Below are positions 29,723 through 53,558 of a stretch of 64,000 nucleotides of DNA, in pieces. Source of the DNA: Dyella sp. 2HG41-7 (GTDB taxonomy: Bacteria; Pseudomonadota; Gammaproteobacteria; Xanthomonadales; Rhodanobacteraceae); contig NZ_JAJEJV010000004.1 of assembly GCF_021390675.1 (NCBI RefSeq), positions 2,046,001 through 2,110,000 of the forward strand, in the 5' to 3' direction. Numbering within the stretch: the stretch's first letter is position 1; every line of letters begins with the position of its first letter. Below the pieces are notes generated by a model that saw nothing but the letters and a program-made list of their open reading frames with translations, was not told the DNA's origin and searched no databases. Made by a program: the position numbers and the translations under genes.

Positions 29723-29777
29723 TTGCGCATCTCGAAGATCGGCCTAAGTTGGACTCAAGACGTGATCGAAAGATCAC
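29723..29777 (+). promoter_or_regulatory. Shared promoter-operator, site 1
   Basis: -35 TTGCGC (29723-29728), 16-bp spacer, -10 TAAGTT (29745-29750), operator GTGATCGAAAGATCAC (29762-29777). Drives the 29805 gene. Confidence 0.75.
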
Positions 29778-29804
29778 ATGAAATCCAGCCGATGGAGAAG
29801 AAGC

Positions 29805-30464
29805 ATGATCAGTGACCGACTTGCCGCAGAAATTGCCACCGACATCTCAGCTATCAATAGCGGTGCCCTGACACGCCGAGATTTAACCGAAGCGTTGACC
29901 GATCGTGGGCTGCTCCATGATCAAGATGCACGCGCATCCGTTAAACGCATCCATGCGCTGAAAACGGCCCGGTGGGCGCACCGAACCTTGGATCCGTTGT
30001 TGCTGGCCGCCTCCTATCGCCAGACGAAAGCCCAACGTTTGCGTGAAGAGCGGCGGCGCCAAGCCGACACCGATGCCTATCTGGCCCTGCCCATCGCCGC
30101 ACACTGGCGCTCAGATCGGCGGGCGGCCGTGGCCAAGGCCACCTTCGATCAGGATTGGGCCCTGGATGAGGCCATCGCCGCCACCTTGGAGGCTGTGACG
30201 CGACTGGCACGGAAGTGGGGGTTTGAGCGTCGGCATACCTCACGGAGTTCGGGCCAGGCGGACAGCCGCTACCTGGTGCTGCCAGGCGTGGGGGAGGTTC
30301 GCATCAGTGACCATGAGATCCCGGTCTACGGTGAGCGTGCTTTTCGTTATGAGCAAAACGGTGGCCCAGGGTGGGGTGAAGTGATCATCCAGCGCAAGGA
30401 GCTCGCTTGGAGCCCAGTCCGTTGGCGGCGCGAACTCATCCTGCGTGCAGCAGGGCGGCGGTGA
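29805..30464 (+). CDS. Hypothetical protein
   Basis: 219 aa from ATG 29805, with GGAGAAG 4 nt upstream. An N-terminal helical part has the pattern LTRRDLTEALTDRGLL and a basic helix (YRQTKAQRLREERRRQAD). The C-terminal part is probably beta-rich (YLVLPGVGEVRISDHEIPVYG). No family recognised. First gene under shared promoter site 1; probably an operon with the next small gene. Confidence 0.6.
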   Translation: MISDRLAAEIATDISAINSGALTRRDLTEALTDRGLLHDQDARASVKRIHALKTARWAHRTLDPLLLAASYRQTKAQRLREERRRQADTDAYLALPIAAHWRSDRRAAVAKATFDQDWALDEAIAATLEAVTRLARKWGFERRHTSRSSGQADSRYLVLPGVGEVRISDHEIPVYGERAFRYEQNGGPGWGEVIIQRKELAWSPVRWRRELILRAAGRR

Positions 30465-30466
30465 GG

Positions 30467-30652
30467 ATGAACACCACGAAGCGCCGTCAACGGTGGCACC
30501 TGTGGACGATCCGCGGCGTCCCCTACTACTTGAACACCCAGCGCCACCGACGCGCGATGAAATGGGGGTGGGAGGACTACGTCTTTTCAGGCCAATCCGT
30601 GCTGGCATCGGAGCGGCCAGTTGCCACCAGAGCATCCATGGGTGGGATGTAG
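30467..30652 (+). CDS. Small basic protein
   Basis: 61 aa from ATG 30467, 2 nt after the previous stop. Rich in R, W and Y (TTKRRQRWHLWTIRGVPYYL). The stop lies inside the dispersed repeat that precedes promoter site 2, so the last residues may be incidental. No family recognised. Confidence 0.45.
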   Translation: MNTTKRRQRWHLWTIRGVPYYLNTQRHRRAMKWGWEDYVFSGQSVLASERPVATRASMGGM

Positions 30653-30690
30653 GAAAACTCGCACGCAAAGTGTGGTCGATGTCAGCGGTT
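30638..30690 (+). repeat. Dispersed element repeat, copy F
   Basis: GGGTGGGATGTAGGAAAAC then CACGCAAAGTGTGGTCGATG, matching the copies at 29665, 35730 and 40668. Confidence 0.6.
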
Positions 30691-30697
30691 TTAGGTC

Positions 30698-30752
30698 TTG
30701 CGCAACTCGAAAATCGGCCTACGTTGAACTTATACCGTGATCGAACGATCAC
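30698..30752 (+). promoter_or_regulatory. Shared promoter-operator, site 2
   Basis: -35 TTGCGC (30698-30703), 16-bp spacer, -10 TACGTT (30720-30725), operator GTGATCGAACGATCAC (30737-30752). The leader then carries the ribosome site CCAGGAG before the acidic-protein gene. Confidence 0.8.
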
Positions 30753-30777
30753 GCCTAACCCCGCCAGGAGAATGACC

Positions 30778-31446
30778 ATGTCTACCGATTCCCGCTTTGA
30801 AGTCTATGTTGACGGATACGAGTTCAACGATGTTGACCTGTCCGAAGCGAACAGCGCTTATGAGGCCTGGGATCAGGTGACAGACTGGCTCCTGGAAAAC
30901 TCAGAGGAGCAGCTTGACGAAGTGCAAACCAAGACCATCGGTTTTGATGTGTCAGTGACCGACTTGGATGACGACAGCGAGTTCAATCAGGACATTTACG
31001 TCCATCCCGATGAACCGTCGGATGCCGATGGCGATTGGGAATACCTCGGCCGTCTCAACAACATTGAATATCGCGTGTGCGATTCGTCGAACGGTGAGGA
31101 CCGCTGGTATTGGATTGAAGACGAGAACAACCCGGCAGACTTCGGCGGCCAGGCCAACCGGACTTACACCCAGGACACTTCCATGATCCCGGACGAGTTC
31201 GTGGTGGAAGACGAGGCCCGTTTCACGATCGAAATCGACGGTGAGGAAGTGGACGAGCGTGAAGTGTGCCGCTGGGAAGGCATCGCCGACCTGGACGATA
31301 TCGAAGACGCCGACGCGATGCTGGATGCCGTCTTTGAATACCTCTCGCAGGGGCATCGCGGCAACGAAGACGGGACCCGTGTCGAAATCACCGTGGAATC
31401 CAACGAGGAGGACGAGGACACGGCTGAGGGATCGTTTGAGTTTTGA
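30778..31446 (+). CDS. Highly acidic protein, possible DNA mimic
   Basis: 222 aa from ATG 30778. By hand count about 30% of residues are Asp or Glu (runs such as DLDDDSEF, SNEEDEDTAEG) with few Lys/Arg. Such a charge is typical of DNA-mimic anti-restriction or anti-nucleoid proteins, but I see no ArdA or Ocr signature, so the role is a guess. It is directly controlled by shared promoter site 2. The longer open frame to 30445 crosses that promoter and is not real. Confidence 0.65.
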   Translation: MSTDSRFEVYVDGYEFNDVDLSEANSAYEAWDQVTDWLLENSEEQLDEVQTKTIGFDVSVTDLDDDSEFNQDIYVHPDEPSDADGDWEYLGRLNNIEYRVCDSSNGEDRWYWIEDENNPADFGGQANRTYTQDTSMIPDEFVVEDEARFTIEIDGEEVDEREVCRWEGIADLDDIEDADAMLDAVFEYLSQGHRGNEDGTRVEITVESNEEDEDTAEGSFEF

Positions 31447-31503
31447 ACCACAATGACCGTAAGGGGTGGCGACACCCCACCCACCACTTCCAGGAGCCCC
31501 GCC

Positions 31504-31839
31504 ATGTCCACGATCACCTTTGAATACCTTGCCGACCTGACCCAACGTGCCTGGCGCTTTGCTCAGCACGAATGGCCCTTGCTCCCCGGTGGGCCCATGC
31601 CCGTGTTCGAGTTGAAGACGAAGGCCGACAGCAAGAACCAGGGCATCGGCTACTCGATGTCCGAGATGCAGGACCTGGACCATGACGACGTGATGTTCCG
31701 CGTCCTCCACGAAGTGAGTGTTTTTGCCACCCTCTTGCGCGGGGCGGATCCGAAGCAGGTGGAGGCGACCTTTGACACCCTGGTGGCCCGCATCAATGAA
31801 GCCACGGAGGCGGAAGCTGGCCAGGCCACGAAGCACTGA
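31504..31839 (+). CDS. Hypothetical protein
   Basis: 111 aa from ATG 31504 with CAGGAG upstream. No membrane or signal segment; central part SKNQGIGYSMSEMQDLDHDD. In the same transcription unit as the acidic protein. No family recognised. Confidence 0.6.
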   Translation: MSTITFEYLADLTQRAWRFAQHEWPLLPGGPMPVFELKTKADSKNQGIGYSMSEMQDLDHDDVMFRVLHEVSVFATLLRGADPKQVEATFDTLVARINEATEAEAGQATKH

Positions 31840-31859
31840 ACACCCGAGAGACCCAGAGC

Positions 31860-31970: not shown

Positions 31971-32010
31971 GATGACGTCACGTGTCTTGAAAGTCAGCGG
32001 GTTGTAGGTC

Positions 32011-32065
32011 TTGCGGGTCTCGAAAATCGGCCTACGTTGGAATCATGAAGTGATCGAACGATCAC
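32011..32065 (+). promoter_or_regulatory. Shared promoter-operator, site 3
   Basis: -35 TTGCGG (32011-32016), 16-bp spacer, -10 TACGTT (32033-32038), operator GTGATCGAACGATCAC (32050-32065), then the same leader with CCAGGAG as site 2. Confidence 0.8.
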
Positions 32066-32090
32066 GCCGAACCCCGCCAGGAGAATGACC

Positions 32091-32333
32091 ATGCAAGGCA
32101 CCTACACCAAACTCAAAGATGGAAGCTGGGGCGTCTGGATCAACCAGGCCGCCACCGACATTCAGCCAGGCGACGTGGTTTTTGTCCTGCCCAAGAACGG
32201 CGGCGTCAAGCACGAAATCGTCCGCCATGTGCTGTGGTCCGGCGAGGATCGGACCCTGTGTGCAATCGAGACCGGCAACCGCAAGCGCCTCATGACCGTG
32301 CTGCGTAACGGCTGCTCCTACGGTCACATCTGA
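32091..32333 (+). CDS. Small hypothetical protein, paralogue of the 36894 gene
   Basis: 80 aa from ATG 32091, which has better spacing from CAGGAG than the ATG at 32085. LKDGSWGVWIN and DIQPGDVV align with LPDGTWGACIN and DVQPNDRV of the 36894 product, so the element holds two copies of one small, probably all-beta fold. Function unknown. First gene behind promoter site 3. Confidence 0.6.
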   Translation: MQGTYTKLKDGSWGVWINQAATDIQPGDVVFVLPKNGGVKHEIVRHVLWSGEDRTLCAIETGNRKRLMTVLRNGCSYGHI

Positions 32334-32346
32334 GGGAGAACCCGCC

Positions 32347-32616: not shown

Positions 32617-32619
32617 ATC

Positions 32620-32940: not shown

Positions 32941-32964
32941 CCCCAAAGCCCGATCGATATGCCC

Positions 32965-33018
32965 TTGCGCATCACGAAAATCGGCTTAGCGTAAATCTAG
33001 GTGTGATCTAACGATCAC
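32965..33018 (+). promoter_or_regulatory. Shared promoter-operator, site 4
   Basis: -35 TTGCGC (32965-32970), 16-bp spacer, -10 TAGCGT (32987-32992), operator GTGATCTAACGATCAC (33003-33018). Confidence 0.8.
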
Positions 33019-33045: not shown

Positions 33046-33510
33046 ATGTCCATCCGCACTTCCATCACCGCCTTAGCTCTCACCTTGGTTTCCCTGTCCG
33101 TGTGTGCGACCCCGAGCAGGGAGGGCGTTTCCAATCAAGCCAGCGACACCCTGGCGTTGATCCAGCAGGTTCGCGCGTCCCATCCCAAGGGCAATTTCAC
33201 CGACATCGATCACCCCGTGAGCAAGTCCTACGCATGGGGGCAAGTGAATTTTGTAGGCCTGAAGAGAATGGGAAACACTCAAAGCCTCGCCGTCCAGACT
33301 GCCTACCTCCCCGCGGGCGCCGCTTGCATTCACTACGTGCAGGCCATCTCTGCTGCCGCGCCCGTGACGGATGCTTTCGTGACCGACCCCACCTCCCGCT
33401 TCGGCACGGGCGTTCGCGTTTTCTCGAACGGGCACCTCGATCCCGTGCTCCTGGACCGGGCGTGTCGCAAGCCTTCATCCCCCGTCTTCATCGACTTTGA
33501 CATTTCCTGA
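33046..33510 (+). CDS. Secreted hypothetical protein
   Basis: 154 aa with a signal peptide (SITALALTLVSLSVCA|TPS). The mature part has two cysteines (AACIHY and RACRKPS) and a beta-rich central region. ATAAGGAA ribosome site. First gene under promoter site 4. No family recognised; likely periplasmic. Confidence 0.6.
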   Translation: MSIRTSITALALTLVSLSVCATPSREGVSNQASDTLALIQQVRASHPKGNFTDIDHPVSKSYAWGQVNFVGLKRMGNTQSLAVQTAYLPAGAACIHYVQAISAAAPVTDAFVTDPTSRFGTGVRVFSNGHLDPVLLDRACRKPSSPVFIDFDIS

Positions 33511-33524: not shown

Positions 33525-33713
33525 ATGTATCACGCCTTCAACCCCCGCCCGATCCCCGCCGGCCTGCAGAACATGCCCAGCCAAGTGGCCCTCGAAGCCT
33601 ACGCCATGCTCACGCGTGAAGAGCGCGCCCTGGAATACGTGGACCGGGACGCATGGTGGGCCGCCTTTCACGCCCACGCGCTGACCCTGATGGCCCGCTA
33701 CGGCCTGAACTAA
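33525..33713 (+). CDS. Small hypothetical protein
   Basis: 62 aa, 14 nt after the preceding stop. Helical, aromatic-rich (DRDAWWAAFHAHALTLMARY). No family recognised. Confidence 0.5.
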   Translation: MYHAFNPRPIPAGLQNMPSQVALEAYAMLTREERALEYVDRDAWWAAFHAHALTLMARYGLN

Positions 33714-33732: not shown

Positions 33733-34215
33733 ATGAACCCCGCCACCGAACACCTCTTCGACGCCATCACCGACGCCAACCCAGCCGGCGTCCGCCTCGC
33801 CCTGGCCGAAGGCGCCGACGTCAACGCGCGCCATCCCCTGGGCCAGCTCACGCCGCTGCATCTCGTGTGTTGGATGCACGGGAAGCGCACCTATCGATCC
33901 TTCCACCGCTCGCCCGAGACCGAGCTGATCACCGAACTCCTGCTGGCCGCCGGTGCGGATCCCACCGCCCGCGATGGCATGGGCGCCCTGGCCAAGCGCG
34001 CTGGGATGAATTCGAGCTGCCACATGCCGGCGGCCTGGTGCGAAGGCGGTGACGTGCCCCGGTGCCTGGTGCAGCGCATGGCCGAGCTCACCGCCGCGCA
34101 ACGGTGGCCTGAGCCGGAAACGGATGGCACAGCCAATCCGGCAAACAACGGAAAAGTGGGCTCTTACGTGGGCCGCAACATCTACCGCAAGGATCGCTAC
34201 CGGGTCGCCGCTTGA
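33733..34215 (+). CDS. Ankyrin-repeat protein
   Basis: 160 aa. The first half shows ankyrin units: DANPAGVRLALAEGADVNAR, QLTPLHLVCWMHG, and ELLLAAGADPTARDGMG. Ankyrin repeats bind other proteins. This is one of four ankyrin genes in the element (also 52105, 58705, 59069). Partner unknown. Last gene of the site-4 unit. Confidence 0.7.
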   Translation: MNPATEHLFDAITDANPAGVRLALAEGADVNARHPLGQLTPLHLVCWMHGKRTYRSFHRSPETELITELLLAAGADPTARDGMGALAKRAGMNSSCHMPAAWCEGGDVPRCLVQRMAELTAAQRWPEPETDGTANPANNGKVGSYVGRNIYRKDRYRVAA

Positions 34216-34268
34216 CTCCAGGCGGAAAGGGAATAGTGTCCAGCGTGCAGCAGTGATCTAACGACCAC
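34212..34268 (+). promoter_or_regulatory. Shared promoter-operator, site 5 (parA)
   Basis: -35 TTGACT (34212-34217, inside the ankyrin stop), 16-bp spacer, -10 TAGTGT (34234-34239), operator GTGATCTAACGACCAC (34253-34268) with one changed base. A looser second half-match, GTGACCTAACCACC, begins at 34279. Confidence 0.7.
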
Positions 34269-34313: not shown

Positions 34314-34937
34314 GTGACGCACACGATCCATGTGCACGGCCGCAAAGGCGGATCCACCAAAACCCTCACCACCCTCACGCTCGCCGGTGCCCTTGCCTCC
34401 CTGGGCGCCGACGTGCTGGTGGTGGACCTCGACCCGAACGGTGCCGACGGCGGAAGTTTGCGCTGGGCCTCTCTGGCGCACGCCAATGGTCGGCAGCCCG
34501 CGTTCACCGTGTGCCCGGCCCTCCCGCGCAGGGTAGAGGCGGACGTGGTGATCTTCGACCATCCGCCGGGGCAGCCCAGCCGGTTGCCGGAGGGCTTGAT
34601 CGTGATTCCTACATCCTTGGATCCAGGCAATGTCATTTCGGCGATGAGGCTTCAGGCGCAGTTGGCTAAGCGGAAGCCTGCGCCCATCGTGGTGGCCAGC
34701 CGCGTGCGCCTCGATCGTGCGGAGCCCCGGAAGATGCTGGCGCAGCTCGAAGGCGTCCACGCCGTCCGGGATCGGGCGATCTACCCGACGAGCTACGGCG
34801 CGGGACAGACGATCTACGACATGTCCGGGCCGCATGCCGAAGCCGCACGCCAGGAGCATTTGCCGGTGGTGCAGCAGGTGTTGGCCGCCCTGGGGAACCC
34901 GACCTTTGCGCCGGTCCAGGCAGGAGGGGTATCGTGA
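34314..34937 (+). CDS. parA: ParA-family partition ATPase
   Basis: 207 aa from GTG 34314 (ribosome site AAGGAG). Deviant Walker A GRKGGSTKTLTTLTLAGALA at residues 9-28 (K11 and K16 of the KGGxxKT pattern), Walker A' VLVVDLDPNGADGG, and VVIFDHPPG as motif B. Plasmid-type ParA moves DNA by nucleoid binding; in integrative elements it stabilises the excised form. It overlaps the next gene by 4 nt and is controlled by promoter site 5. Confidence 0.85.
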   Translation: MTHTIHVHGRKGGSTKTLTTLTLAGALASLGADVLVVDLDPNGADGGSLRWASLAHANGRQPAFTVCPALPRRVEADVVIFDHPPGQPSRLPEGLIVIPTSLDPGNVISAMRLQAQLAKRKPAPIVVASRVRLDRAEPRKMLAQLEGVHAVRDRAIYPTSYGAGQTIYDMSGPHAEAARQEHLPVVQQVLAALGNPTFAPVQAGGVS

Positions 34938-35569
34938 ACCAGAGGTCAGAAGGTATCTTGTCGCCATCCCAACCCGCTTGGATGGCCGAAGCTGTGAAGA
35001 TCAATCGTGACGAAAATGGACGCCGGAAGCCACGAAAGGCGAACCAGGAGGCGCGGCAGAGTGTTCAGGGCCAAACCTTCAAGTTCGAGGAAATCACTGG
35101 CAACGGCAGCGTGTTCATGGGTGCCGAAATCCGCGCGGATGCCCGAGGCACCCAGGTGGCCTTCCACCCCGAGCTGGCGAAGCGGCTCAAGGACGTCACG
35201 CACAACGTCAACTGGTCCACGGCGCCGATGGCCTTGGCGGATTACGCGATGGACCAGTTGAAAGGCAAGCGCGTCACGTTTGTCGCCCGGGACGCAGACA
35301 AGGGCACGGGGCCGCTGGTCACTTATACGCTCGCAGACACCCGGGGCACGCGCATTGTGATGGAAGGCAAGATGCCCGTGTGTGGCAATGAAGGCCGGCG
35401 CCGTGTGGCGGTTCCCCTCGACGTTCGCCGTCGCATCGAAGCGGCCATCGATGACACTTTGCCATTCAGTCATGCCGTGATGGCGTTGACGTGCTGGGCG
35501 CTGGATGACTTGAAACGGCGCAAGAAGACGCTGGTGGTGCCCAAGCGTGAAGGTGAAGAGGAAGCGTGA
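34934..35569 (+). CDS. Putative partition partner with internally duplicated domain
   Basis: 211 aa from GTG 34934, overlapping parA. Not a classical ParB: no ParB nuclease motif. Two segments align with one another: VAFHPELAKRLKDV...MALADYAMDQLKGKR (residues 75-113) and VAVPLDVRRRIEAA...MALTCWALDDLKRRK (158-197). The helices MALxxxAxDxLK could form an RHH-like or helical DNA-binding unit in tandem. Position after parA suggests a centromere-binding protein. A terminator follows. Confidence 0.65.
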   Translation: MNQRSEGILSPSQPAWMAEAVKINRDENGRRKPRKANQEARQSVQGQTFKFEEITGNGSVFMGAEIRADARGTQVAFHPELAKRLKDVTHNVNWSTAPMALADYAMDQLKGKRVTFVARDADKGTGPLVTYTLADTRGTRIVMEGKMPVCGNEGRRRVAVPLDVRRRIEAAIDDTLPFSHAVMALTCWALDDLKRRKKTLVVPKREGEEEA

Positions 35570-35788: not shown

Positions 35789-35843
35789 TTGCGCATCTCG
35801 AAAATCGGCCTACGTTGGAATCATGAAGTGATCGTTCGATCAC
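35789..35843 (+). promoter_or_regulatory. Shared promoter-operator, site 6
   Basis: -35 TTGCGC (35789-35794), 16-bp spacer, -10 TACGTT (35811-35816), operator GTGATCGTTCGATCAC (35828-35843), the same palindrome as sites 2 and 3 read from the other strand. Confidence 0.8.
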
Positions 35844-35868: not shown

Positions 35869-36102
35869 ATGAGCAACTATTTTTCCAGCGCCTCCGACGC
35901 CGCTTCTTTCATGAGCAAGCTGTTGCGCAACGACTATTTCCAGGACTTCTCGGCCCAAGACCGCGTCGAGGATCCGGATGGGATCTATGCGATTGAAGCA
36001 GAGATGCCGCACTGGGGCGAAATGGAGCGCGAGGCATTCGGGTTGTTTGCTGAAGCCACCCCTGCCGAGCGCGCCGAGCTTTTCGAGACCTGGGGTAACT
36101 GA
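35869..36102 (+). CDS. Small acidic hypothetical protein
   Basis: 77 aa from ATG 35869 (ribosome site GAGGAGAT). Acidic and helical (AEMPHWGEMEREAFGLFAEA). No family recognised. First gene under promoter site 6. Confidence 0.6.
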   Translation: MSNYFSSASDAASFMSKLLRNDYFQDFSAQDRVEDPDGIYAIEAEMPHWGEMEREAFGLFAEATPAERAELFETWGN

Positions 36103-36897: not shown

Positions 36898-37088
36898 TCG
36901 CCGGACATCCGGTTCGGCTGCCGGACGGAACCTGGGGCGCCTGCATCAACGGAGTCGATGACGTGCAACCCAATGATCGCGTGGCCATGACCTCTGCACG
37001 AGGGGAGACCTGGACCGCCGCGGTCACGGACGTCATCGAGAGCTACCGCGGCACCTTCCTGGTGAAAGTGCGACGGTTGGCCCCTTGA
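36894..37088 (+). CDS. Small hypothetical protein, paralogue of the 32091 gene
   Basis: 64 aa from ATG 36894, overlapping the preceding stop. LPDGTWGACIN and DVQPNDRV match the 32091 product. The stop overlaps the -35 region of promoter site 7. Function unknown. Confidence 0.55.
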   Translation: MIAGHPVRLPDGTWGACINGVDDVQPNDRVAMTSARGETWTAAVTDVIESYRGTFLVKVRRLAP

Positions 37089-37138
37089 CGATTGTGAACT
37101 TCGGCCTAGCTTGAAAATAACTGTGATCGAACGACCCC
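37085..37138 (+). promoter_or_regulatory. Shared promoter-operator, site 7
   Basis: -35 TTGACG (37085-37090), 16-bp spacer, -10 TAGCTT (37107-37112), operator GTGATCGAACGACCCC (37123-37138); the right half is degenerate, so binding may be weaker. Confidence 0.65.
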
Positions 37139-37154: not shown

Positions 37155-37295
37155 ATGCACCTGCAACCCATCGACCCGCATTCCATGCTTAAACCCATCC
37201 TGGTGATGGCTCTGATGTGCTGGGGGCTTCTGACCGTCGCGCTCACCGATCACCCGCACCCCCATCCAATCCCCGTGGCTCAGGAGGCCCAGTGA
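37155..37295 (+). CDS. Very small membrane peptide
   Basis: 46 aa from ATG 37155 (TAAGGAG upstream). One hydrophobic helix (PILVMALMCWGLLTVAL), then a His/Pro tail (DHPHPHPIP). Its TGA overlaps the GTG of the HTH gene (GTGA), so the two are coupled. No family recognised. Confidence 0.5.
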   Translation: MHLQPIDPHSMLKPILVMALMCWGLLTVALTDHPHPHPIPVAQEAQ

Positions 37296-37702
37296 AAACC
37301 CAGAAGCTCAACCCATCCCAAGTGCGCGCCGCCCTCCTGGCTGGTGAACACGACGTCACCATTGCTCGCGCCCAAGGGGTGACCCGACAGCGCATCAGCC
37401 AACTTCGGCACGAATGGGGCATCCCATCCCACCGGGCCCCGATCGACGTAAAGGTTGTGCGCCCGCTGGTCATGAAGGGCCTGGGAGATTGCGAAATCGG
37501 GCGACGGTTGGGTGTCACGGATAACCGAGTGCGCCACCTCCGGCACACCCACGGCTGGCCCACGGCCATCCGGATCCGGGAGCAGCAGGTCCGTGCCGCC
37601 TCACAGCATCACGTCACCCAGCGAGAGATTGCGGAACGCGTGGGCCTGTCGGAAGCCACCGTGGGCGACATCCGGCGACGGTTGGGGTTGAGCGACGTTT
37701 AA
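37292..37702 (+). CDS. DNA-binding protein with three HTH repeats
   Basis: 136 aa from GTG 37292. Three helix-turn-helix units about 45 residues apart: TIARAQGVTRQRISQLRHEW (23-42), EIGRRLGVTDNRVRHLRHTH (68-87), and EIAERVGLSEATVGDIRRRL (112-131). Each resembles the homeodomain-like units of resolvases and transposases, but no catalytic domain is present. It is a candidate regulator of the shared operators. The 41185 gene encodes a second protein of this design. Confidence 0.75.
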   Translation: MKTQKLNPSQVRAALLAGEHDVTIARAQGVTRQRISQLRHEWGIPSHRAPIDVKVVRPLVMKGLGDCEIGRRLGVTDNRVRHLRHTHGWPTAIRIREQQVRAASQHHVTQREIAERVGLSEATVGDIRRRLGLSDV

Positions 37703-37722: not shown

Positions 37723-37778
37723 TTGACGACCTCGAAGATCGGCCTAGCGTTTCAGTAAGACTGTGATCTAACGATCAC
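37723..37778 (+). promoter_or_regulatory. Shared promoter-operator, site 8
   Basis: -35 TTGACG (37723-37728), 16-bp spacer, -10 TAGCGT (37745-37750), operator GTGATCTAACGATCAC (37763-37778). Confidence 0.8.
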
Positions 37779-37810: not shown

Positions 37811-38104
37811 GTGACAAACAAGATCGTCGTTCTGAAAGACCAACGCACTCCCGTTGAAGGGACCCCTTATGTCATAGACGAATTTCAGGCTTTGGTTGCC
37901 CAGGACGGCATGGGCACCCTGGCCGCTGATTTCCAGCCCATGAAAGCTCACCTGACCAGCAAGACCGCACCACTGTTTCCGATGCCGGACTCGATCCCGG
38001 AGCGCAAAGTCATCATCGACCAAGCCCTGAGCATCCTGCGCGGACTGCGCGCCCGCGATGCCGAGAGTGCGGCGACGCTGGCCAACGAAGTCTTGGGCTA
38101 CTGA
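37811..38104 (+). CDS. Hypothetical protein
   Basis: 97 aa from GTG 37811 (CGGAGAC upstream). No signal or membrane segment; the C-terminal half is helical (IIDQALSILRGLRARDAESA). First gene behind promoter site 8. No family recognised. Confidence 0.55.
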   Translation: MTNKIVVLKDQRTPVEGTPYVIDEFQALVAQDGMGTLAADFQPMKAHLTSKTAPLFPMPDSIPERKVIIDQALSILRGLRARDAESAATLANEVLGY

Positions 38105-38663: not shown

Positions 38664-39077
38664 ATGCGTCTTTTCCTCATCGTCCTCATCTATCTGTTGC
38701 CAACACTGGCCAGCGCCGGCAGCGTCACCGCAACCCTCGAAATCCGAGCCACGGTGGTCGCAAGTTGCAACGTCTCCACTCAGCCGCTCACCCTCACCCC
38801 GCACTCCACCGGTTCCGCATCCCCAACCGGCACCGTCACCGCCGGGAGCATCGACCTGCGTTGCACACGCGGCACCCCCGTCACCGTTTCCCTGGAACAG
38901 GGGCCGCTTACCGGACCGGGCGGGGCAACGCTGGCCTACACGCTCAGCGCGCCGAGCTCGGCGATCGGGCAGGGAGCGCGTGTGGTGTCCCTGCCGGTGA
39001 CCGGGAACGTGCAGGGTGGGCAGGAGGTGCCGGTGGGGGACTACGCGGGAACGGCGGTTGTGCGGGTGACCTACTGA
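38664..39077 (+). CDS. Secreted SCPU (spore coat U)-domain-like protein
   Basis: 137 aa with a signal peptide (LFLIVLIYLLPTLASA|GSV). The mature protein reads ATLEIRATVVASCNVSTQPL, IDLRCTRGTPVTVSLEQG, LPVTGNVQGGQEVPVGDYAG and ends VRVTY. This is the pattern of SCPU-domain proteins, which form chaperone-usher-like (Csu) surface fibres. No chaperone or usher gene is nearby. It overlaps the convergent gene by 7 nt. Confidence 0.72.
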   Translation: MRLFLIVLIYLLPTLASAGSVTATLEIRATVVASCNVSTQPLTLTPHSTGSASPTGTVTAGSIDLRCTRGTPVTVSLEQGPLTGPGGATLAYTLSAPSSAIGQGARVVSLPVTGNVQGGQEVPVGDYAGTAVVRVTY

Positions 39078-40489
39078 CCCATCCCGTCATTGCTGTCGTG
39101 GGTTTCCTGAAACGCCAGCTCCTCTGCCAGTGGGATAGGATCGTCAGCCGGCTGGATGAGGGTGCGCGACTTGAGGATGCTGTGTTTGAAGAAACGCTGG
39201 CAATCCATGACCCCATCGACCGGAAGCCAGTGGTCGGCTTCGGGAAAGAGCGCTGGATTGATGGGGTGTTTGGCGTTGGGATTGTGGAAAACCTCCAACT
39301 CGGCCGTCCAGGGCTCGTAGGGATAGGGAGTCCAGAGCGCACGGTATTCATCCGTGTTCACGTCCATGCTGAAAGGGATGCCCCGCAAGGCCCCTGGGGT
39401 GAAATCAGCGAACTCCCCAATCCGCACATAGCGAAAATCCCCGGTGGGACCCCCGAAGGACATCGGCACGCGGCTGAGCTTGGCGAGCGTTGCCCCGTTA
39501 GAGAAGATCACGGCCGACAGGTCTACCCCTTCCGGTCTGAGGAAGAGCCCAGCGGGAATGTGCTGATCTCCCAGCAGCGTTTCGACGTCCTCATGCACCG
39601 CCACCGTTTTTCCATCTACATCCACTTCGCGGGCGTAGATCCCGTAGAGATACCCCATTAACGCGGAGCGGCTCCACACCATCGAACCCGGTGCGTGGAA
39701 ATCGGCGACCGCGAGCGCAAAGGGCCGTCCCGCAACATGGGGCATCTGCGCGTAGCCCTTTTCCATCTTGCTCTTGATCGTTTTTGCAAATCGAACCGCC
39801 GCCGTGCCCAGCATCAGCTCCCGGCGCTCGGTGGGCATCGGGGTTTCCTTGGCTTTGGCGTGGTCGTAACGCACCGCAGGATTGGCGGTCACGGCCTCGA
39901 CCCATGCCTCACCTCCCTTGCGATTGGACACATGAAAATCAGGTGAGGGATGGTCCTGAGTCACCAGGAGCCCCTGCTCGCGGAAGCTGGCCAGCAACAG
40001 TGCTTCCCACAGTCGGGTGTGGAAATTCTCCGTGCGGCAGTCGCTGGCCCAGTTGTCGTCGGGGTTCGGTAGGGCCAGATACAACTGATTGAGCATCCAC
40101 GCGCCGCGCTCACGAAAGGGGTGAGCCAGAAGCTTGAAGATGCCGCTGGGCTCTTTGCCTCTGAAATCGGGGAGTGCAGGGCGCCTTTTCACGCCAGGTG
40201 GAACGGGGACCCGGTCTGCGTTTTCGTCGCACGCCTGGCGAAGGATCTCCATGGCCTCCTCTTCGGTGAAAGCATCGTCCTCCCGACGAAGCACGGCCCA
40301 GACGTCGTCGACCCGCCGCCGCATGATCAGGACGCCATGCCGCTGCGAGGTTGCATTCCGGGTCAGCGCGCCAACGGTGATCCCATCCGCACCCGCCCAG
40401 GCGTTGACCGGAGGGTTCTCGCCGAAGCCCAGGCCGCGCGGCAGCGAGAGGGCGAACACATCGAAAATGCTGCGGGGAAGCGGATCCAT
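39071..40489 (-). CDS. Large hypothetical protein with possible PD-(D/E)xK nuclease core
   Basis: 472 aa from ATG 40489 (AGGGATGG upstream); an in-frame ATG lies at 40498. The longer frame to 40687 crosses dispersed repeat C. Residues 153-201 read RTENFHTRLWEALLLASF, then SPDFHV and GEAWVEAV, which could supply E162, D184 and E198 of a PD-(D/E)xK fold, with Val instead of Lys. No methylase or partner gene is adjacent. A single large gene opposite to its neighbours is typical of cargo such as defence. Function not proven. Confidence 0.55.
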   Translation of the reverse strand: MDPLPRSIFDVFALSLPRGLGFGENPPVNAWAGADGITVGALTRNATSQRHGVLIMRRRVDDVWAVLRREDDAFTEEEAMEILRQACDENADRVPVPPGVKRRPALPDFRGKEPSGIFKLLAHPFRERGAWMLNQLYLALPNPDDNWASDCRTENFHTRLWEALLLASFREQGLLVTQDHPSPDFHVSNRKGGEAWVEAVTANPAVRYDHAKAKETPMPTERRELMLGTAAVRFAKTIKSKMEKGYAQMPHVAGRPFALAVADFHAPGSMVWSRSALMGYLYGIYAREVDVDGKTVAVHEDVETLLGDQHIPAGLFLRPEGVDLSAVIFSNGATLAKLSRVPMSFGGPTGDFRYVRIGEFADFTPGALRGIPFSMDVNTDEYRALWTPYPYEPWTAELEVFHNPNAKHPINPALFPEADHWLPVDGVMDCQRFFKHSILKSRTLIQPADDPIPLAEELAFQETHDSNDGMGQ

Positions 40490-40741: not shown

Positions 40742-40798
40742 TTGACAGATTTTCAGGCGAGCCTAGGTTGGAGTCATGAGGTGTGATCTATGAATCAC
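40742..40798 (+). promoter_or_regulatory. Shared promoter-operator, site 9
   Basis: -35 TTGACA (40742-40747), 16-bp spacer, -10 TAGGTT (40764-40769), operator GTGATCTATGAATCAC (40783-40798) inside a longer palindrome GTGTGATCTATGAATCACAC. The -35 is a consensus hexamer, so this may be the strongest of the set. Confidence 0.75.
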
Positions 40799-40853: not shown

Positions 40854-41129
40854 ATGAAAATCCACGCTGAAATCATCACCTCCGAAGCCCGCTACATCGT
40901 GGTCGAGACTGGCACGAGTAGCGGCGGCAAGTGGGGCTTCCCGGTCAAATTGAGCACCGTAAAGCTGCCCGTGGGTGTCGAGTATGTGCATGCCCGCCAG
41001 GCGACTGCTGAAGTCATCGAGAGCTGGAAGGTGGACTCGCGCAACCAGGGCCCGAAGTCGAATTACGGCCGCACGCTGCAAGCGCTGATCCAGGAGCTGC
41101 CCGGTCACGCGTTTCCAAAGGCCGCCTGA
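40854..41129 (+). CDS. Hypothetical protein
   Basis: 91 aa from ATG 40854 (CGAGGAAAT). Beta-rich first half (EARYIVVETGTSSGGKWGFPV), helical tail. No family recognised. First gene behind promoter site 9. Confidence 0.58.
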   Translation: MKIHAEIITSEARYIVVETGTSSGGKWGFPVKLSTVKLPVGVEYVHARQATAEVIESWKVDSRNQGPKSNYGRTLQALIQELPGHAFPKAA

Positions 41130-41184
41130 TCCCACCCATCCACAAACGAGGGCCGGCATGGAGGCTGGCCCGAAGGAGACTGAC

Positions 41185-41706
41185 ATGAAGCCCAGTTTGG
41201 ACCCGCTTCACTGGTCGCGTTTGAAGTTCTATCCCCGCCTGTTGCGGATCGGGTGGGAGCGCTACAAGGAGCTCGACCCCGCCACGCAACGCCAGGTAAA
41301 GGGCATCGTGAAGGGCCGGATTCGCGGCGATCACTACAAGGCCATCTCGGAAGCTGTGGGCCTGAACACGTATTACGTGGAGCATTACACGAAGATCCTT
41401 GGCCTCCCTTCGACCCGCGCGTTCCGGATGCGCAAGGTGGCCAAGCTCCGTTACCACGGGCTCTCTGCGCCCGAGGTCGCCGCGCGCATGGGCTTGACGG
41501 TTCGTGCGGTGAACATCCTGCGCGCTCACATGCGCCTCCCGCCTTTCGCGCGCGAAAAGCGACCGCCACGGCACCGCTCCCCGTTGCGCGGCCACATCGC
41601 CACGCTTCACGCGCAAGGGCTCCCGGCCGCCGAGATAGCGGAACGTCTGGGCGTGTCTCGGCAAACCGTGCACATCTGGATCAAGCGGATCACGCGCGCC
41701 GCTTGA
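41185..41706 (+). CDS. Second DNA-binding protein with three HTH repeats
   Basis: 173 aa from ATG 41185 (AAGGAGAC upstream); the ATG at 41158 lacks a site. HTH-like units at about 52-73 (AISEAVGLNTYYVEHYTKIL), 97-116 (EVAARMGLTVRAVNILRAHM) and 150-169 (EIAERLGVSRQTVHIWIKRI). Same design as the 37292 product and also preceded by a shared promoter. It could be the regulator or a regulated member. No catalytic domain. Confidence 0.75.
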   Translation: MKPSLDPLHWSRLKFYPRLLRIGWERYKELDPATQRQVKGIVKGRIRGDHYKAISEAVGLNTYYVEHYTKILGLPSTRAFRMRKVAKLRYHGLSAPEVAARMGLTVRAVNILRAHMRLPPFAREKRPPRHRSPLRGHIATLHAQGLPAAEIAERLGVSRQTVHIWIKRITRAA

Positions 41707-42585: not shown

Positions 42586-42771
42586 ATGTTCCACACACTC
42601 GGCTATCGCGGCCATCACATCCAGCTCAGCACCCCCGATCGGCACTCGAAGGAAGAGATCCGCGTGCGCATCGGTCACACGGACGGCGGTTTCCACCTGG
42701 TGCAAGTCCGCACATTGATCGGTGCCATGCGCGCCATCACCCGCCACGTTCGCCAGGAGAAGCAGGCATGA
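42586..42771 (+). CDS. Small hypothetical protein
   Basis: 61 aa, ATG 42586 with the strong ribosome site AAAGGAGAGG. Basic, His-rich start (YRGHHIQLSTPDRHSKEEIR). Overlaps the next gene by 4 nt. No family recognised. Confidence 0.55.
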   Translation: MFHTLGYRGHHIQLSTPDRHSKEEIRVRIGHTDGGFHLVQVRTLIGAMRAITRHVRQEKQA

Positions 42772-43202
42772 GCGACAACGCCGGCAATCCGTTTGAAGGG
42801 GCTCCGATCATCTTTGCTTACACCCGAAAGATGGCGCTGGCCGATGGTGTGCTCGTTGAGCTGAAGGAAGCTCCGCACCAGGGTTTCAAGATCCACACCG
42901 CTTGCACCGAGCGCGTGTGGGCCTCCCTGATCGCCTGGCCGTTCGCCAGCAACAAGGAGGGCATGCAGCGGATCCGGGAAGAAGCCCTGTTGCGCGCCGC
43001 GTTCCTGTCTGTTCGGACGAAGATCCAGATGGAGCGGGCAGGGGTGCCGGATGCCCAGCCCGACCGTTGCGATTTTCACGTGCAAGCCGTGATCTACGAC
43101 GAAGGTGAACCGGTCACGCGGGACGTGCAGCTCTACATGATGATCGGACCTGGTGACACACCGCAGCCGGTGTCCACGATCATGTTCGTGGACGAGGACT
43201 GA
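42768..43202 (+). CDS. DUF6573-like hypothetical protein
   Basis: 144 aa from ATG 42768, overlapping the previous stop. The N-terminus IIFAYTRKMALADGVLVELK resembles the small plasmid-borne family that begins IYSYTRxxAxxDGVLxD (DUF6573-type). Function of that family is unknown to me. Confidence 0.6.
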   Translation: MSDNAGNPFEGAPIIFAYTRKMALADGVLVELKEAPHQGFKIHTACTERVWASLIAWPFASNKEGMQRIREEALLRAAFLSVRTKIQMERAGVPDAQPDRCDFHVQAVIYDEGEPVTRDVQLYMMIGPGDTPQPVSTIMFVDED

Positions 43203-45766: not shown

Positions 45767-46150
45767 ATGTCCACGTCCGTTTCCCTTCGCTTGTCCCCCG
45801 GCCAGCTCGCCGCCCTGGATGCATTGGTGCGTCAAGAGGGCGGCACGGTCACCGGCCACATCCGCACGGGTCTGACCTTCCGCCTCGACCTGGGTGAGCA
45901 CCGCAAGGCCATTCGACAGATCGTCAACGAGGAGCTGAAAGCCGCACTCGCCGAACAGCAAGCCGAGTGGGCCGGTGTGCGCGAGCAGATGGTCGAGGCC
46001 AACGCCATCACCGTTGAAAGCTTCGGCCAGCTCCTCGCCAGTTTCTTGAACAAGCTCGGCGACCTCGCCCCGCACGTGCCGGCTCCGGCGCCTTCCGACA
46101 CCTCCACCACTTCCACGGGCGGCAGCGACATGCCGCGCCGCTCCCGCTGA
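45767..46150 (+). CDS. Ribbon-helix-helix protein, TrwA-like relaxosome accessory candidate
   Basis: 127 aa from ATG 45767; the frame upstream to 45521 runs through the candidate oriT. The N-terminus STSVSLRLSPGQLAALDALV then TVTGHIRTGLTFRL is an RHH fold like TrwA of R388 (IQVRLSPEKQALLE). The C-terminus is a helical stalk and an S/T tail. In MOBF systems such a protein binds oriT and represses its own promoter. Position beside the inverted-repeat region supports this. Confidence 0.65.
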   Translation: MSTSVSLRLSPGQLAALDALVRQEGGTVTGHIRTGLTFRLDLGEHRKAIRQIVNEELKAALAEQQAEWAGVREQMVEANAITVESFGQLLASFLNKLGDLAPHVPAPAPSDTSTTSTGGSDMPRRSR

Positions 46151-48587: not shown

Positions 48588-48627
48588 GCAGGGATTGCCA
48601 AGCAGCTTTTTTCTGCAAAAACATTTG

Positions 48628-48650
48628 AGAGGGCTCCGGCTCTCTCTTCT
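48628..48650 (+). terminator. Hairpin after the Pro-rich membrane protein gene
   Basis: GAGAGgGctccgg-CTCTC arms followed by TTCTCC; the T-run is short, so termination may be partial. Confidence 0.4.
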
Positions 48651-48670
48651 CCCCGCCTCAAGAGAGCCCC

Positions 48671-50321: not shown

Positions 50322-52108
50322 ACCCCCTGCCTTACACCGTCAAAAATCTTCCGTATGCCGGCATGCTGCATTTCGGCACCGCCACGGGGTTCCTCAGTTT
50401 GAACCGCTGGGATGGCTTCGCACCTGATCCGGGTCTTCCCGTCTTGATGGAGCCCAGTGCTCTCGCGCAACACATGATCATTTTGGGCGCGAATGGTGTG
50501 GGCAAAACTGTCCTTCTTAAACAGCTTATTCAGGACTACATCCGCGCAAACATCGGCGGACTCGTGATCATGGACGGCAAAGGGGCGTTGCCCGCCGAGT
50601 TCCGGCACCTGAAAAACTACATCTTCATCGATCCTCGCGTGTGCGTCATCTCGCTCTACGAAGGCTTGGAACCCGAGGGCGTCACGACGGCTTATGCGCA
50701 AATCAATATGCGCCCGGACGCCAAGGATCCCATTTGGCAGAACAGCACCAGTGACGTGATCTACAACACCGCCGTGATCCTCTGGTGGCTCGTGAAGTAT
50801 GCCGATGCCATGAACACGCCCGAAGAAGACCGGGTGTGGAACTGGTGCATGTATGACCACGATCGACTGGCCCAGTTGGCGCTTTCCGATAAGGACGCCG
50901 ACCGAGTCGAGGTGGGCAAATACCTGGAATTCTTGAAGGCGCAATACCCCGGTGAAATGTCGGGTCTGCTGGGCGGTGCCATCAACTATGTTGAGAACAC
51001 CATGGGCGGATGGGCTGACACGGTCCGCGGCTCGGTGCTGGCGACCTACGGTGCTTGGACGACGCCGTTGTTGTCGCAGAAGGACATTCAGCGCTGGGCG
51101 CGCGCGGTGCACTCTGAGAAAGATCCAGAGGCCTGTTTGTTCGGGGGGATTATTGGAATCAATTTGGGGGAGGTCCAGTTTGGACGCGCGGGAATTTTGG
51201 CCTCGAGTTTCCTGAAGAACCGAATTTACACAAAGGGTAAGAAGCGCGCCGACTTCGGCAACGACTGGGCCGCGGCAATTCCTGGCTCGACGCCGGTGTG
51301 GGTGGTGCAAGACGAGTATCCGGCCATTGCCACCGAGGCGGAGGTCACCATCGCGCTGCAGGGCCGTTCGCTCGGTTTGTGGCTGTGCTGCCTGGCCCAG
51401 AACATCGAGGCGATTTACGCCACAAATCACAACAAATCGAGCCTGGATGCCTTCTTGGGTAACCTGCTCAGCCGCATTGTGATGCAGACCACCCCGATCA
51501 CGGCCAAGTGGTTGCAGGACACCGTGGGCCCCGTGTGGATCCCGGGCTGGATGAAGAACACGCAGGGCATCGATTACATCAGCTCCGCGTCGAACGCCCT
51601 GGGCAGCGTGCTCTACGACACCAGCCATCCCGACCGCGCGTTCCTTAAGTCCTTGTTGCGTCGTGGCTTCGGCACGTTCCAGAAAGTCCATTTCAAGCCC
51701 GGCACGGTGCAGCGGGTGACGGAGGACGACCACGCCGAAAGGGCCTCTCGGCACGCCGTGGTCACGGGCGGGCAGTGGGTGGAAGAGCCGCTGATCAGTT
51801 TGGCTGATTTCCTCAGCAAGACCCAAAAGATCACCAAGGGCGGCAACGGACTCGAACCCGAAGGCGGCGTGGCCTTCGTGCAGGTGATGCGTGCCGGCGC
51901 TATCCGCCGCGACTTCGTGCAACTCCTGCCCCCGGGCCCGATCGCCGCTGACCTCTTGGATCCGACAGTCACCGAGGAACAGCGGAAGAAGCACGAAGCG
52001 GACATGCAAAAGATCAAGGAGCAAGTGGCCGCATTCAACGCGCAAGAGGCGGCGGACAAGGCCAACGCTGAGGCGGAAGCCGAGGCCGCCGCGGAGGTGA
52101 CCGCATGA
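50312..52108 (+). CDS. TraG/FtsK-like conjugation ATPase
   Basis: 598 aa. Walker A GANGVGKTVLLKQLI at about 59-73, then GGLVIMDGKG; Walker B VWVVQDEYPAIATEAEV; a later GRSLGLWLCCLAQN matches the TraG/VirD4 RecA-core block in which old ATPases read ARSxGIxxxxxxQ. No N-terminal membrane helices; the gene upstream may supply them. The C-terminal 60 residues are an Ala/Glu coiled tail. It is a second coupling-type ATPase besides TraD at 59500, so its substrate is open. Confidence 0.72.
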   Translation: MQVNPLPYTVKNLPYAGMLHFGTATGFLSLNRWDGFAPDPGLPVLMEPSALAQHMIILGANGVGKTVLLKQLIQDYIRANIGGLVIMDGKGALPAEFRHLKNYIFIDPRVCVISLYEGLEPEGVTTAYAQINMRPDAKDPIWQNSTSDVIYNTAVILWWLVKYADAMNTPEEDRVWNWCMYDHDRLAQLALSDKDADRVEVGKYLEFLKAQYPGEMSGLLGGAINYVENTMGGWADTVRGSVLATYGAWTTPLLSQKDIQRWARAVHSEKDPEACLFGGIIGINLGEVQFGRAGILASSFLKNRIYTKGKKRADFGNDWAAAIPGSTPVWVVQDEYPAIATEAEVTIALQGRSLGLWLCCLAQNIEAIYATNHNKSSLDAFLGNLLSRIVMQTTPITAKWLQDTVGPVWIPGWMKNTQGIDYISSASNALGSVLYDTSHPDRAFLKSLLRRGFGTFQKVHFKPGTVQRVTEDDHAERASRHAVVTGGQWVEEPLISLADFLSKTQKITKGGNGLEPEGGVAFVQVMRAGAIRRDFVQLLPPGPIAADLLDPTVTEEQRKKHEADMQKIKEQVAAFNAQEAADKANAEAEAEAAAEVTA

Positions 52109-53412
52109 ACCGCAACCTCTTCATCCATCGCGTCCAACTCCCGCAACGGGAGCGTCAGGAGGTGTCCAACGATCACACACCGATCCCCGGGATGAACCTG
52201 TTTGGACCCACCTCGGCGCCGACCCTCGAACCGAACACTCAACAGCAGGGGGAGGTCCCCATGAAAATCGAACACGAAGACCAGCGTCTGGAAGAAGCCC
52301 GGGCGCGTTTCGGCCAGGCCTTCGACCAGGCCCGTGACCGCGTCGCGGAATTGCGCGAACTTAATCTCGTTCAGCCGTCGCAAACGAATGAAGACCTGTT
52401 GCAGCAATCGAGCATCGAACTGCCCGGCGGATCCAAAGTGTCCCTCATCGACTTCAAGGATCCGATGGCGCCCGCGATCGACAAGGCATTGGCCCACCAG
52501 GCCAGCAATGTGGACTTCGATCACGCCACAGACGAAACCACGCCCCTGCACTCCGCGGTGGCGGACAACAAGTTGGGCCTGGTGCAACGCCTCTTGGACC
52601 ACGGGGCGGATCCGAACTTCCAAATCTCGGAGTATGCCGCGAATGCAGACGCGCCTCTTGTTCCGCTCATGCGCGCCAAGTCCCCCGAGATGGTGGATCT
52701 GCTCTGCAACAACGGGGCCGATGTTCAGAAGTGCCTTTGGCATCAAGACATGCTCGCCAACCCGCAGGTGACCCAAGCTTTCCTGGATCGGGGCCTCCAT
52801 CCGAATGCTCGCACCCAAGAACAACACATGGATGCGGACGAAAGCACTCAGGGCGAAAGCGCGTTGCATCTGGCCCAGGATCCCGAAGTGGCTCGGCGCC
52901 TGGTGCTCGCCGGGGCTGACATCCAGGCCAACGCGGGCACGCGCGAGAAACCCTTGTCCGTCACTCAGAAATGGGCCGAGGACCCTGAGAGTTTCGGCCT
53001 GATCCCCGTGAGCAAGGGCCCCGCATTCGAGCAAGCGGTTCGGGACGCCTCGGCGGAGCGACAGCACCTTCAACATCAGCAACAGGAGAATCCCGTGGAA
53101 AAGAACATGAAACCCGACGAACAGATGCAGCGCGTCCCGCCAACTTTGGCCACCGCCGTGGCCAATGGCATGGTCATGCCCAAGCGTCACGCCAGCTTGG
53201 GTGAAGCGGCCGCCGCAGCCACTGGGCAGGGCAAGAGTGAAGGGGAAGGGCAGGGCGGTCGCCAGGGTGGCCAGGAACGTCCGAGCCACAGCTCTTACTA
53301 CAACCCCGTGCCCGTGGGTGGGATGGCGATGCCGCAGCGGAGCAACACGATCGGGGACGCCGTGGTGCAGCGTGAAGCCGCCCAGAAGCGTCGGCGCACG
53401 CAGAGCATCTGA
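52105..53412 (+). CDS. Large ankyrin-repeat protein
   Basis: 435 aa from ATG 52105, overlapping the ATPase stop. Ankyrin units at about 145-270: TTPLHSAVADNKLGLVQRLL, HGADPNF, PEMVDLLCNNGADVQK and ESALHLAQDPEVARRLVLAG. The N-terminal ~130 residues are charged and helical, and the C-terminal ~100 are disordered (GQGKSEGEGQGGRQGGQER). Coupling to the ATPase gene suggests it is an effector, adaptor or regulator of that machine. Confidence 0.7.
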   Translation: MNRNLFIHRVQLPQRERQEVSNDHTPIPGMNLFGPTSAPTLEPNTQQQGEVPMKIEHEDQRLEEARARFGQAFDQARDRVAELRELNLVQPSQTNEDLLQQSSIELPGGSKVSLIDFKDPMAPAIDKALAHQASNVDFDHATDETTPLHSAVADNKLGLVQRLLDHGADPNFQISEYAANADAPLVPLMRAKSPEMVDLLCNNGADVQKCLWHQDMLANPQVTQAFLDRGLHPNARTQEQHMDADESTQGESALHLAQDPEVARRLVLAGADIQANAGTREKPLSVTQKWAEDPESFGLIPVSKGPAFEQAVRDASAERQHLQHQQQENPVEKNMKPDEQMQRVPPTLATAVANGMVMPKRHASLGEAAAAATGQGKSEGEGQGGRQGGQERPSHSSYYNPVPVGGMAMPQRSNTIGDAVVQREAAQKRRRTQSI

Positions 53413-53435
53413 CCCAACCCTCCACCCATCACCCG

Positions 53436-53453
53436 GGGCCGCGCAAGCGGCCC
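53436..53453 (+). terminator. GC hairpin after the ankyrin gene
   Basis: GGGCCGC-gcaa-GCGGCCC followed by TTGGTGTTTGT; weak T-run but good stem. Confidence 0.5.
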
Positions 53454-53501
53454 TTGGTGTTTGTGCGCCTTTTCTGACATCGACCGACGATCGATCCTGC
53501 A

Positions 53502-53558
53502 TTGACAGCGACCCCCTTTCCCTTAGCCTGGAGATAGAGACAGTGATCTAACGATCAC
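53502..53558 (+). promoter_or_regulatory. Shared promoter-operator, site 10
   Basis: -35 TTGACA (53502-53507), 16-bp spacer, -10 TAGCCT (53524-53529), operator GTGATCTAACGATCAC (53543-53558). It lies 12.7 kb from the nearest other site and has no upstream dispersed repeat. Confidence 0.8.

Follow-up and report, generated by a model that had tools for sequence, protein, structure and literature searches.

A 64,000-nucleotide stretch of the Dyella sp. 2HG41-7 genome (contig NZ_JAJEJV010000004.1, positions 2,046,001 to 2,110,000; called the window here, with its first letter as position 1) covers part of an apparently integrative and conjugative element. Along this element ten promoters of common layout are each followed by the palindrome GTGATC-N4-GATCAC, exact or with up to two mismatches. 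The palindromes are probably the operators of a global repressor that is encoded by the element and has an element-specific recognition, binding and repression both being predicted. The ten sites are listed below with the genes that they head; genes were called with a simple gene caller of our own and units were assigned from gene order.

29723-29777, plus strand: promoter TTGCGC-16-TAAGTT and operator GTGATCGAAAGATCAC (29762-29777), heading 29805-30464.
30698-30752, plus strand: promoter and operator GTGATCGAACGATCAC (30737-30752), heading 30778-31446, then 31504-31839 (putative unit).
32011-32065, plus strand: promoter and operator GTGATCGAACGATCAC (32050-32065), heading 32091-32333 and the small genes after it (putative unit).
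32965-33018, plus strand: promoter and operator GTGATCTAACGATCAC (33003-33018), heading 33046-33510, 33525-33713 and 33733-34215 (ankyrin repeats; putative unit).
34212-34268, plus strand: promoter and operator GTGATCTAACGACCAC (34253-34268, one mismatch), heading parA and its partner gene.
35789-35843, plus strand: promoter and operator GTGATCGTTCGATCAC (35828-35843), heading 35869-36102 and the small genes after it (putative unit).
37085-37138, plus strand: promoter and operator GTGATCGAACGACCCC (37123-37138, two mismatches), heading 37155-37295 and the tandem helix-turn-helix (HTH) gene 37292-37702.
37723-37778, plus strand: promoter and operator GTGATCTAACGATCAC (37763-37778), heading 37811-38104 and the genes after it (putative unit).
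40742-40798, plus strand: promoter and operator GTGATCTATGAATCAC (40783-40798, one mismatch), heading 40854-41129 and the tandem-HTH gene 41158-41706.
53502-53558, plus strand: promoter and operator GTGATCTAACGATCAC (53543-53558), heading the L,D-transpeptidase gene and 54206-54661.

These sites group 23 called genes, mostly of unknown function, into a single candidate regulon, probably for use on settling in a new host. When 16 proteins of the ten units were scanned against Pfam, five scored above the family cut-off (ParA, both tandem-HTH proteins, the L,D-transpeptidase and the ankyrin protein); eight of the 16 were scanned against PHROGs and gave no match.

The -35 boxes read TTGNNN at all ten starts given by an earlier note on this DNA (TTGCGC in four, TTGACG in two, TTGACA in two, TTGCGG and TTGACT in one each), the -10 boxes are all TANNNT and the spacing between the two is exactly 16 bp in every case, as that note had claimed. 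GGCC, which it had reported before many of the -10 boxes, stands immediately before six of the ten. Its account of the operator holds with corrections: the position after the -10 is shared, at a measured distance of 10-13 rather than 10-14 bp; the palindrome is exact at seven promoters, with one mismatch each at 34253 and 40783 and two at 37123; and the centre, described as GAAC or TAAC (GTTC on the other strand), is TAAC in four and GAAC in three, the others being GTTC, GAAA and TATG. A TTGNNN-16-TANNNT promoter lies 8-14 bp upstream of only 0.16% of random positions in the element (20,000 draws).

In the motif search of element and host genome that had been proposed along with these sites, the exact palindrome was found seven times in 4,255,517 bases; all seven copies fall within a stretch of about 24 kb of the element, and the exact motif is not equally frequent across the chromosome. 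Sites with exactly one mismatch number eight more, three in the element (34253, 40783 and 71207) and five elsewhere, while at the two-mismatch level the whole genome yields 147 matches against 17 for the reversed control, and these are judged to be mostly chance. Within the window, the 13 matches with at most two mismatches (the ten and three others) compare with a mean of 2.86 and a maximum of 8 in 100 shuffles. The best recurring palindrome with 6-bp arms occurs in seven exact copies within the element; no more than two were reached in any of 25 shuffles.

Four of the promoters (29723, 30698, 32011 and 35789) are close copies, as would be expected if all ten were recent copies of one cassette whose palindrome persists by descent without a function. 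Cassette copying can account for these four and not for the remaining six (33003, 34253, 37123, 37763, 40783 and 53543; our choice, made by omitting the close copies), which have only the operator in common: compared pairwise they are on average 0.86 identical in the operator and 0.25-0.32 in the adjoining stretches (0.86 and 0.27-0.36 when all ten promoters are compared). The probability left to a functionless palindrome is vanishingly small. Judged from these sequences, the operator is under selection, since operators are 0.86 identical while their flanks are near chance.

Related elements were sought with the ParA partner in 398 genomes of the order (four with a match, the Dyella genome included), with the DUF5906 protein in 233 genomes of the family (ten with a match, four of them strong) and with a ParA profile in 398 genomes (nine with a match, at ten places). 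Nine ParA loci were read, G023 being omitted; four have a clear regulon, those of Dyella and of the genomes G271, G198 and G095, and one has a weak regulon. The G271 operator is GGGGTG-N4-CACCCC, of which all 18 exact genome copies lie in the element (1983450-2045566), the reversed control giving none. That of G198 is GGGAGCCC-N5-GGGCACCC, with all four exact genome copies lying in the element, in a span of 5.4 kb, and none for the control; a two-mismatch, direct-repeat variant also lies in the element (12796) and a one-mismatch place lies outside it. In G095 the operator is asymmetric, GAAGCA-N5-CACCCCA, and all six exact genome copies are within one 18-kb stretch, the reversed pattern being absent in exact form from the 35 kb read. 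G267 has TAAGAGGGGNCC at its ankyrin-parA and transpeptidase genes and at one more place, too few to count. The single match in G261, beside dnaN/dnaA-like genes (by eye), was taken as chance, and the repeated palindromes of G001, G228 and G231 are not established as operators, those of G228 being terminator-like. Among the matches listed, no paper on this element family was found by title.

The promoter scaffold was examined in an unselected test in which all sites were taken and spacers of 15-19 were allowed. TTGNNN-16-TANNNT stands upstream of nine of the ten Dyella sites with at most one mismatch, and likewise of the two-mismatch site 37123; of five of the six G198 places (at most two mismatches); of all six G095 sites; and of ten of the 26 G271 sites with at most one mismatch (19 intergenic, and none of the seven in-gene sites preceded by a promoter). 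The spacer is 16 in every promoter oriented with its site, in all four elements; the two matches in the opposite direction (15452 in G198 and 15093 in G095) have a 19-bp spacer. The spacer between -35 and -10 varies more in ordinary promoters. In a hand-chosen set 31 of 32 sites pass the test, its G271 part consisting of ten gene-preceding sites and 16845, which has a promoter-like flank; because that set omitted 16181, 32592, 35928 and 47745, which also precede genes, and all other sites, the unselected counts are used instead.

The units under control are shared as well. Operators precede parA in all four elements, directly or one to three called genes earlier, and precede the L,D-transpeptidase gene in Dyella, G271 and G095. 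The gene 30778-31446 has an 82% identical counterpart in G271, yet that counterpart stands under GGGGTG-N4-CACCCC and the Dyella gene under GTGATC-N4-GATCAC. The comparison indicates that the promoter scaffold and core target units are retained among the four elements while the operator is replaced. With the confinement of the exact sites, the conservation of the operator alone and the same layout in three relatives, the central proposal of the earlier note, an element-wide regulon with a common operator in a repressor-like position, is supported.

Several observations weigh against operators of a simple repressor. The one-mismatch site 71207 (window scale) falls inside a gene, and the G198 transpeptidase gene has only a three-mismatch site. 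The G095 pattern with at most one mismatch gives eight matches against 14 for the reversed control, so that weight can be placed on the exact copies only. The Dyella genome has a lone copy of the G271-type operator at 31463-31478 (GGGGTGGCGACACCCC; GGGGTG-GCGA-CACCCC), between 30778-31446 and 31504-31839 and ahead of a gene; a one-mismatch counterpart occurs at the same place in G271, and the site may be left over from a different specificity or be a hairpin that both elements have kept. In G271 itself the promoter test is passed at eight of the 18 exact sites and failed at a ninth, 21633, for want of the final T; four are inside genes, parA included, and five are otherwise intergenic, three of these preceding by some 20 bp a further -35 box that belongs to a second promoter-like class (by eye). 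Because many exact sites are off promoters, repression is not the whole story in G271, where the binding protein may also work as an activator, a roadblock or a partition protein. The second promoter-like class, TTGCC/TTGAC followed by a stretch like TTTTGAGAGG, is present in the window at 48588-48670 and 62463-62525 and precedes transfer and pilus-like genes in the Dyella, G271 and G198 elements (all by eye).

The in-gene sites of G271, with parA among them, and the operators ahead of parA in the four elements would also be expected if the sites were mainly the partition (centromere) sites of the ParA system and promoter control were secondary; plasmids do have ribbon-helix-helix (RHH) partition proteins whose binding sites overlap promoters (PMC9499535; this and the other papers are cited from excerpts). 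Partition alone needs no fixed position after a promoter, which is found for all ten Dyella sites given by the earlier note and six of six in G095 (eight of the 18 exact sites in G271). Moreover, at least four adjacent repeats are described for full activation of the ParA ATPase of pSM19035 (PMC9499535), whereas the sites here are single. A mainly centromeric function is therefore unlikely, and promoter control is preferred.

Placed where the transcripts would start, and with a potential 6-bp stem and 4-base loop (read from the sequence), the palindromes could be mRNA hairpins that act on stability or translation instead of operators. Deviations from the palindrome are uncompensated, however: the left half, on the promoter side, is intact in all ten Dyella sites and the right half in seven, and the corresponding numbers for 11 G271 sites are 11 and nine. 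A hairpin needs neither one stem sequence per element nor different ones in relatives, G198 retains an A-A mismatch, G095 has no palindrome and four exact G271 sites are inside genes; 5' hairpins are thus highly unlikely. Single-strand promoters of the Frpo/Ssi kind, active on entry into a recipient, would make sense of inverted repeats in a transferred element, and early expression would be sensible. Here the -10 precedes the repeat, both boxes, which are ordinary in the duplex, stand outside that repeat (no search for other pairings was made), and the G095 sites are not inverted repeats, which leaves such promoters barely credible. Dam methylation of GATC was dropped as an explanation, the operators of the relatives being without GATC. 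Operators of a repressor remain the preferred reading of the palindromes, and the element encodes several candidates for the protein that would bind them.

34314-34937, plus strand: ParA-type ATPase, 207 amino acids (Pfam CbiA 4.6e-9, AAA_31 8.6e-8).
34934-35569, plus strand: ParA partner, 211 amino acids, leading regulator candidate, with two strand-helix-helix stretches in a low-confidence model.
37292-37702, plus strand: tandem-HTH protein, 136 amino acids, second candidate (HTH_23 1e-10; KORA 8.8e-6, 26.3 bits with a cut-off of 26.7).
41158-41706, plus strand: tandem-HTH protein, 182 amino acids, second candidate (HTH_23 1.2e-16).
25392-25595, plus strand: RHH protein before the DUF5906 gene, weak candidate (RHH_1 2.1e-4, above its cut-off).
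45767-46150, plus strand: RHH-like protein before the transfer genes (class by eye), weak candidate.

Candidates were compared by which of the four clear-regulon elements encode them. In our judgement the regulator is most plausibly, at a little under even chances, the ParA partner; it may possibly be a tandem-HTH protein, and some other protein is a lesser possibility. The ParA partner is present in all four elements, falling below the E 1e-4 threshold in G095, and in Dyella it belongs to an operator-headed unit. In all nine loci read parA is followed by a protein with a similar C-terminal stretch (20-40% identity, delimited by hand), which in G001 comes one gene further on. Few families are common to all four elements at E 1e-4, and ParA is the sole one tied to DNA partition or regulation. 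Type Ib partition pairs ParA with an RHH partner, and as in that type a short ParA ATPase here adjoins the partner gene; the partner is possibly an RHH protein. It is the best fit because it is in all four elements and in an operator-headed unit, and because RHH partners with such a double role are known in plasmids.

Against the ParA partner, Pfam and NCBIfam gave no family at E ≤0.1 and PHROGs none at 0.01, nor did either of two fold searches produce a match at E 0.001. Its two models are both of low confidence and differ: one, with a mean predicted local distance difference test (pLDDT) score of 56.9, has the order strand-helix-helix twice, and the other (mean pLDDT 68.6) has two helices and no strand. 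In addition, a simple RHH dimer would prefer a palindrome, and the non-palindromic G095 site is a better fit to a tandem-HTH protein. The partner had no match among plasmids or viral contigs and a match at one locus, that of G198, among genome contigs. A ParA homologue in G271 (L023:934-1533, minus strand) has no Walker A motif at its N-terminus and has one at its C-terminus (VHVVNTKGGVGRSTISL), as if circularly permuted, and the G271 operator stands immediately upstream of its ATG.

In the competing assignment the partly KorA-like tandem-HTH proteins 37292-37702 and 41158-41706 are the repressors, like KorA/ArdK in plasmids, and the ParA partner serves partition only. Both genes lie within operator-headed units (those of 37123 and 40783), their homologues in G198 and G095 do likewise and a homologue occurs in G001. 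A KorA/ArdK-type protein would be better suited to the asymmetric site of G095 and to the G198 direct-repeat variant at 12796, ArdK being reported to bind direct as well as inverted repeats (PMC9723621). The KORA match of 37292 (8.8e-6) scores slightly below the cut-off, and for 41158 KORA is absent from the best 25 of 30 families. No tandem-HTH gene was found in 80 kb of G271, which has the 18 exact sites, the best match there being an XRE protein at 0.02, and the one HTH match in G267 (5.4e-9) was taken by eye for a transposase. We regard the tandem-HTH proteins as possible repressors, though not the favoured ones.

The remaining candidates fare less well. Short proteins similar to the RHH-like 45767-46150 (class by eye) are encoded at the same place in all four elements; it has no Pfam or PHROG match at 0.01. 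Homologues of the RHH protein 25392-25595 were found in Dyella, G198, G271 and G267, in a search that left out G095; the strand through which it presumably recognises DNA hardly differs between Dyella and G198 despite their different operators. Similar genes precede DUF5906 genes in G308 and G242 (by eye), where no palindrome has more than three copies, a weak test, since it would overlook asymmetric sites like those of G095. An XRE protein encoded outside the window (L005:14023-14364) and present in Dyella, G271 and G198 was rejected as the general regulator, being absent from the G095 stretch; the sole XRE homologues (E 1e-6) in G095 and G267 lie some 380 kb away from the stretches read or on another contig, the element ends there being unmapped. 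The regions upstream of the XRE gene itself have other palindromes (by eye).

By our reading of gene content the element starts near the integrase and continues beyond the window as far as about 94.3 kb (window scale). Two further genes of it are given here.

22185-23534, plus strand: tyrosine integrase, on the left side of the element (Phage_integrase 4.9e-19).
53589-54209, plus strand: L,D-transpeptidase (YkuD_2 1.3e-23).

The element is assigned as integrative and apparently conjugative because, with this integrase, it encodes a TrwC-type relaxase with helicase (TrwC 3.9e-52) and a coupling protein (TrwB_AAD_bind 1.5e-48). ArdC-like, YadA-like and UmuD-like genes are also present and, by eye, UmuC-like and pilin-like ones. 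No VirB4-type match was found in the part of the element's proteins scanned, nor did the two end stretches, compared in search of attachment repeats, have any repeat of 14-40 bases in common. Between two regulon units and in the opposite orientation, 39071-40489 (minus strand) matches the defence model PD-T7-1 (3e-66), and directly after the L,D-transpeptidase unit 54719-56617 matches the Orf5 (4.5e-100) and type IV restriction (4.8e-72) defence models, with homologues in G198 and G267. The DUF6573 protein of 42768-43202 occurs in Dyella, G198, G271 and G267; it also appears in 133 plasmid records, of which 97 are from Xanthomonas.

In the proposed working, a dimeric or multi-domain repressor would sit just past the -10, at roughly +2 to +20, and stop RNA polymerase. 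Ten units would be silenced, comprising parA and its partner, the tandem-HTH genes, the L,D-transpeptidase unit and many small proteins, and the circuit would be self-limiting because the units with candidate regulators are operator-headed. By analogy with RK2 and R388, the units would be quiet in a settled host and briefly on upon entry into a repressor-free cell. Repressor and operators would have changed together, because the relatives share the promoter class and differ in operator, and related elements should then not repress one another. More tentatively, a ParA-linked regulator may be both the partition protein and the element-wide repressor, each element having moved to its own operator with promoter architecture and core units kept. 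If so, these elements would form private regulatory groups, comparable to phage immunity groups, and related elements could enter or share one cell without mutual silencing, while cassettes moving between elements would fall under the resident operator, as 30778-31446 appears to have done. Four elements with four operators on one scaffold offer a comparative set for the joint change of a repressor and its dispersed sites, and raise the question of whether conjugative elements form exclusion groups as phages do.

The earlier note could not name a regulon of this kind; close parallels nevertheless exist in RK2 KorA/KorB, R388 ArdK/StbA/KorA, pSM19035 omega and the mycobacteriophage stoperators. 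In the excerpts on RK2/RP4, KorA has seven and KorB 12 operators, KorB acts with the ParA-type IncC (PMC7314908; PMC11790492) and, within 10 min of mating, a new recipient already shows induction of leading-region operons such as korA-incC-korB, kla and kle (PMC7314908). The Dyella system would resemble KorA/KorB (and KorC and TrbA) as a global repressor with many operators on one element and maintenance operons induced in new recipients. It differs in its operators, in a ParA partner that matches no family and in the position of the operator, which lies after the -10 and not at it, as described for RK2 KorA (PMC9723621). In R388, ArdK represses five promoters, the StbA of the segregation operon overlaps with it and negative feedback gives an overshoot after transfer (PMC3937220, PMC9723621). 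The likeness is that one repressor serves several promoters, its own among them, that belong to genes for maintenance and host invasion (PMC3937220, PMC9723621); the ArdK sites described there are direct repeats at the -35, unlike those here, and an ArdK orthologue is not established in Dyella. Operator sequence, topology and spacing are reported to vary widely in the KorA/ArdK family (PMC9723621).

In pSM19035 the RHH protein omega (ParB), the partner of delta (ParA), is also a regulator whose sites overlap promoters (PMC9499535), a role for which the Dyella partner is a candidate only. The sites described there are runs of 7-10 seven-base repeats, whereas those here are single and bipartite, and the RHH fold of the Dyella partner is only putative. 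Cluster A mycobacteriophages, as far as excerpted, likewise have many sites per genome for one repressor, and the stoperator motif drifts between related genomes with that repressor (PMC6550527); a two-domain monomer that reads an asymmetric site is also known (PMC9283540, in excerpt). The phage proteins are different, their motifs are similar to each other where those compared here are quite different, and in contrast to stoperators as described all ten Dyella sites given by the earlier note, and about half of those in G271, follow promoters. By analogy, then, the Dyella system resembles these systems in its working, membership of any of them not being established (KORA is below its cut-off and the partner is without a family). 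Its presumed function is of a known kind; what is unusual is that one promoter scaffold and its core targets are kept under four different operators.

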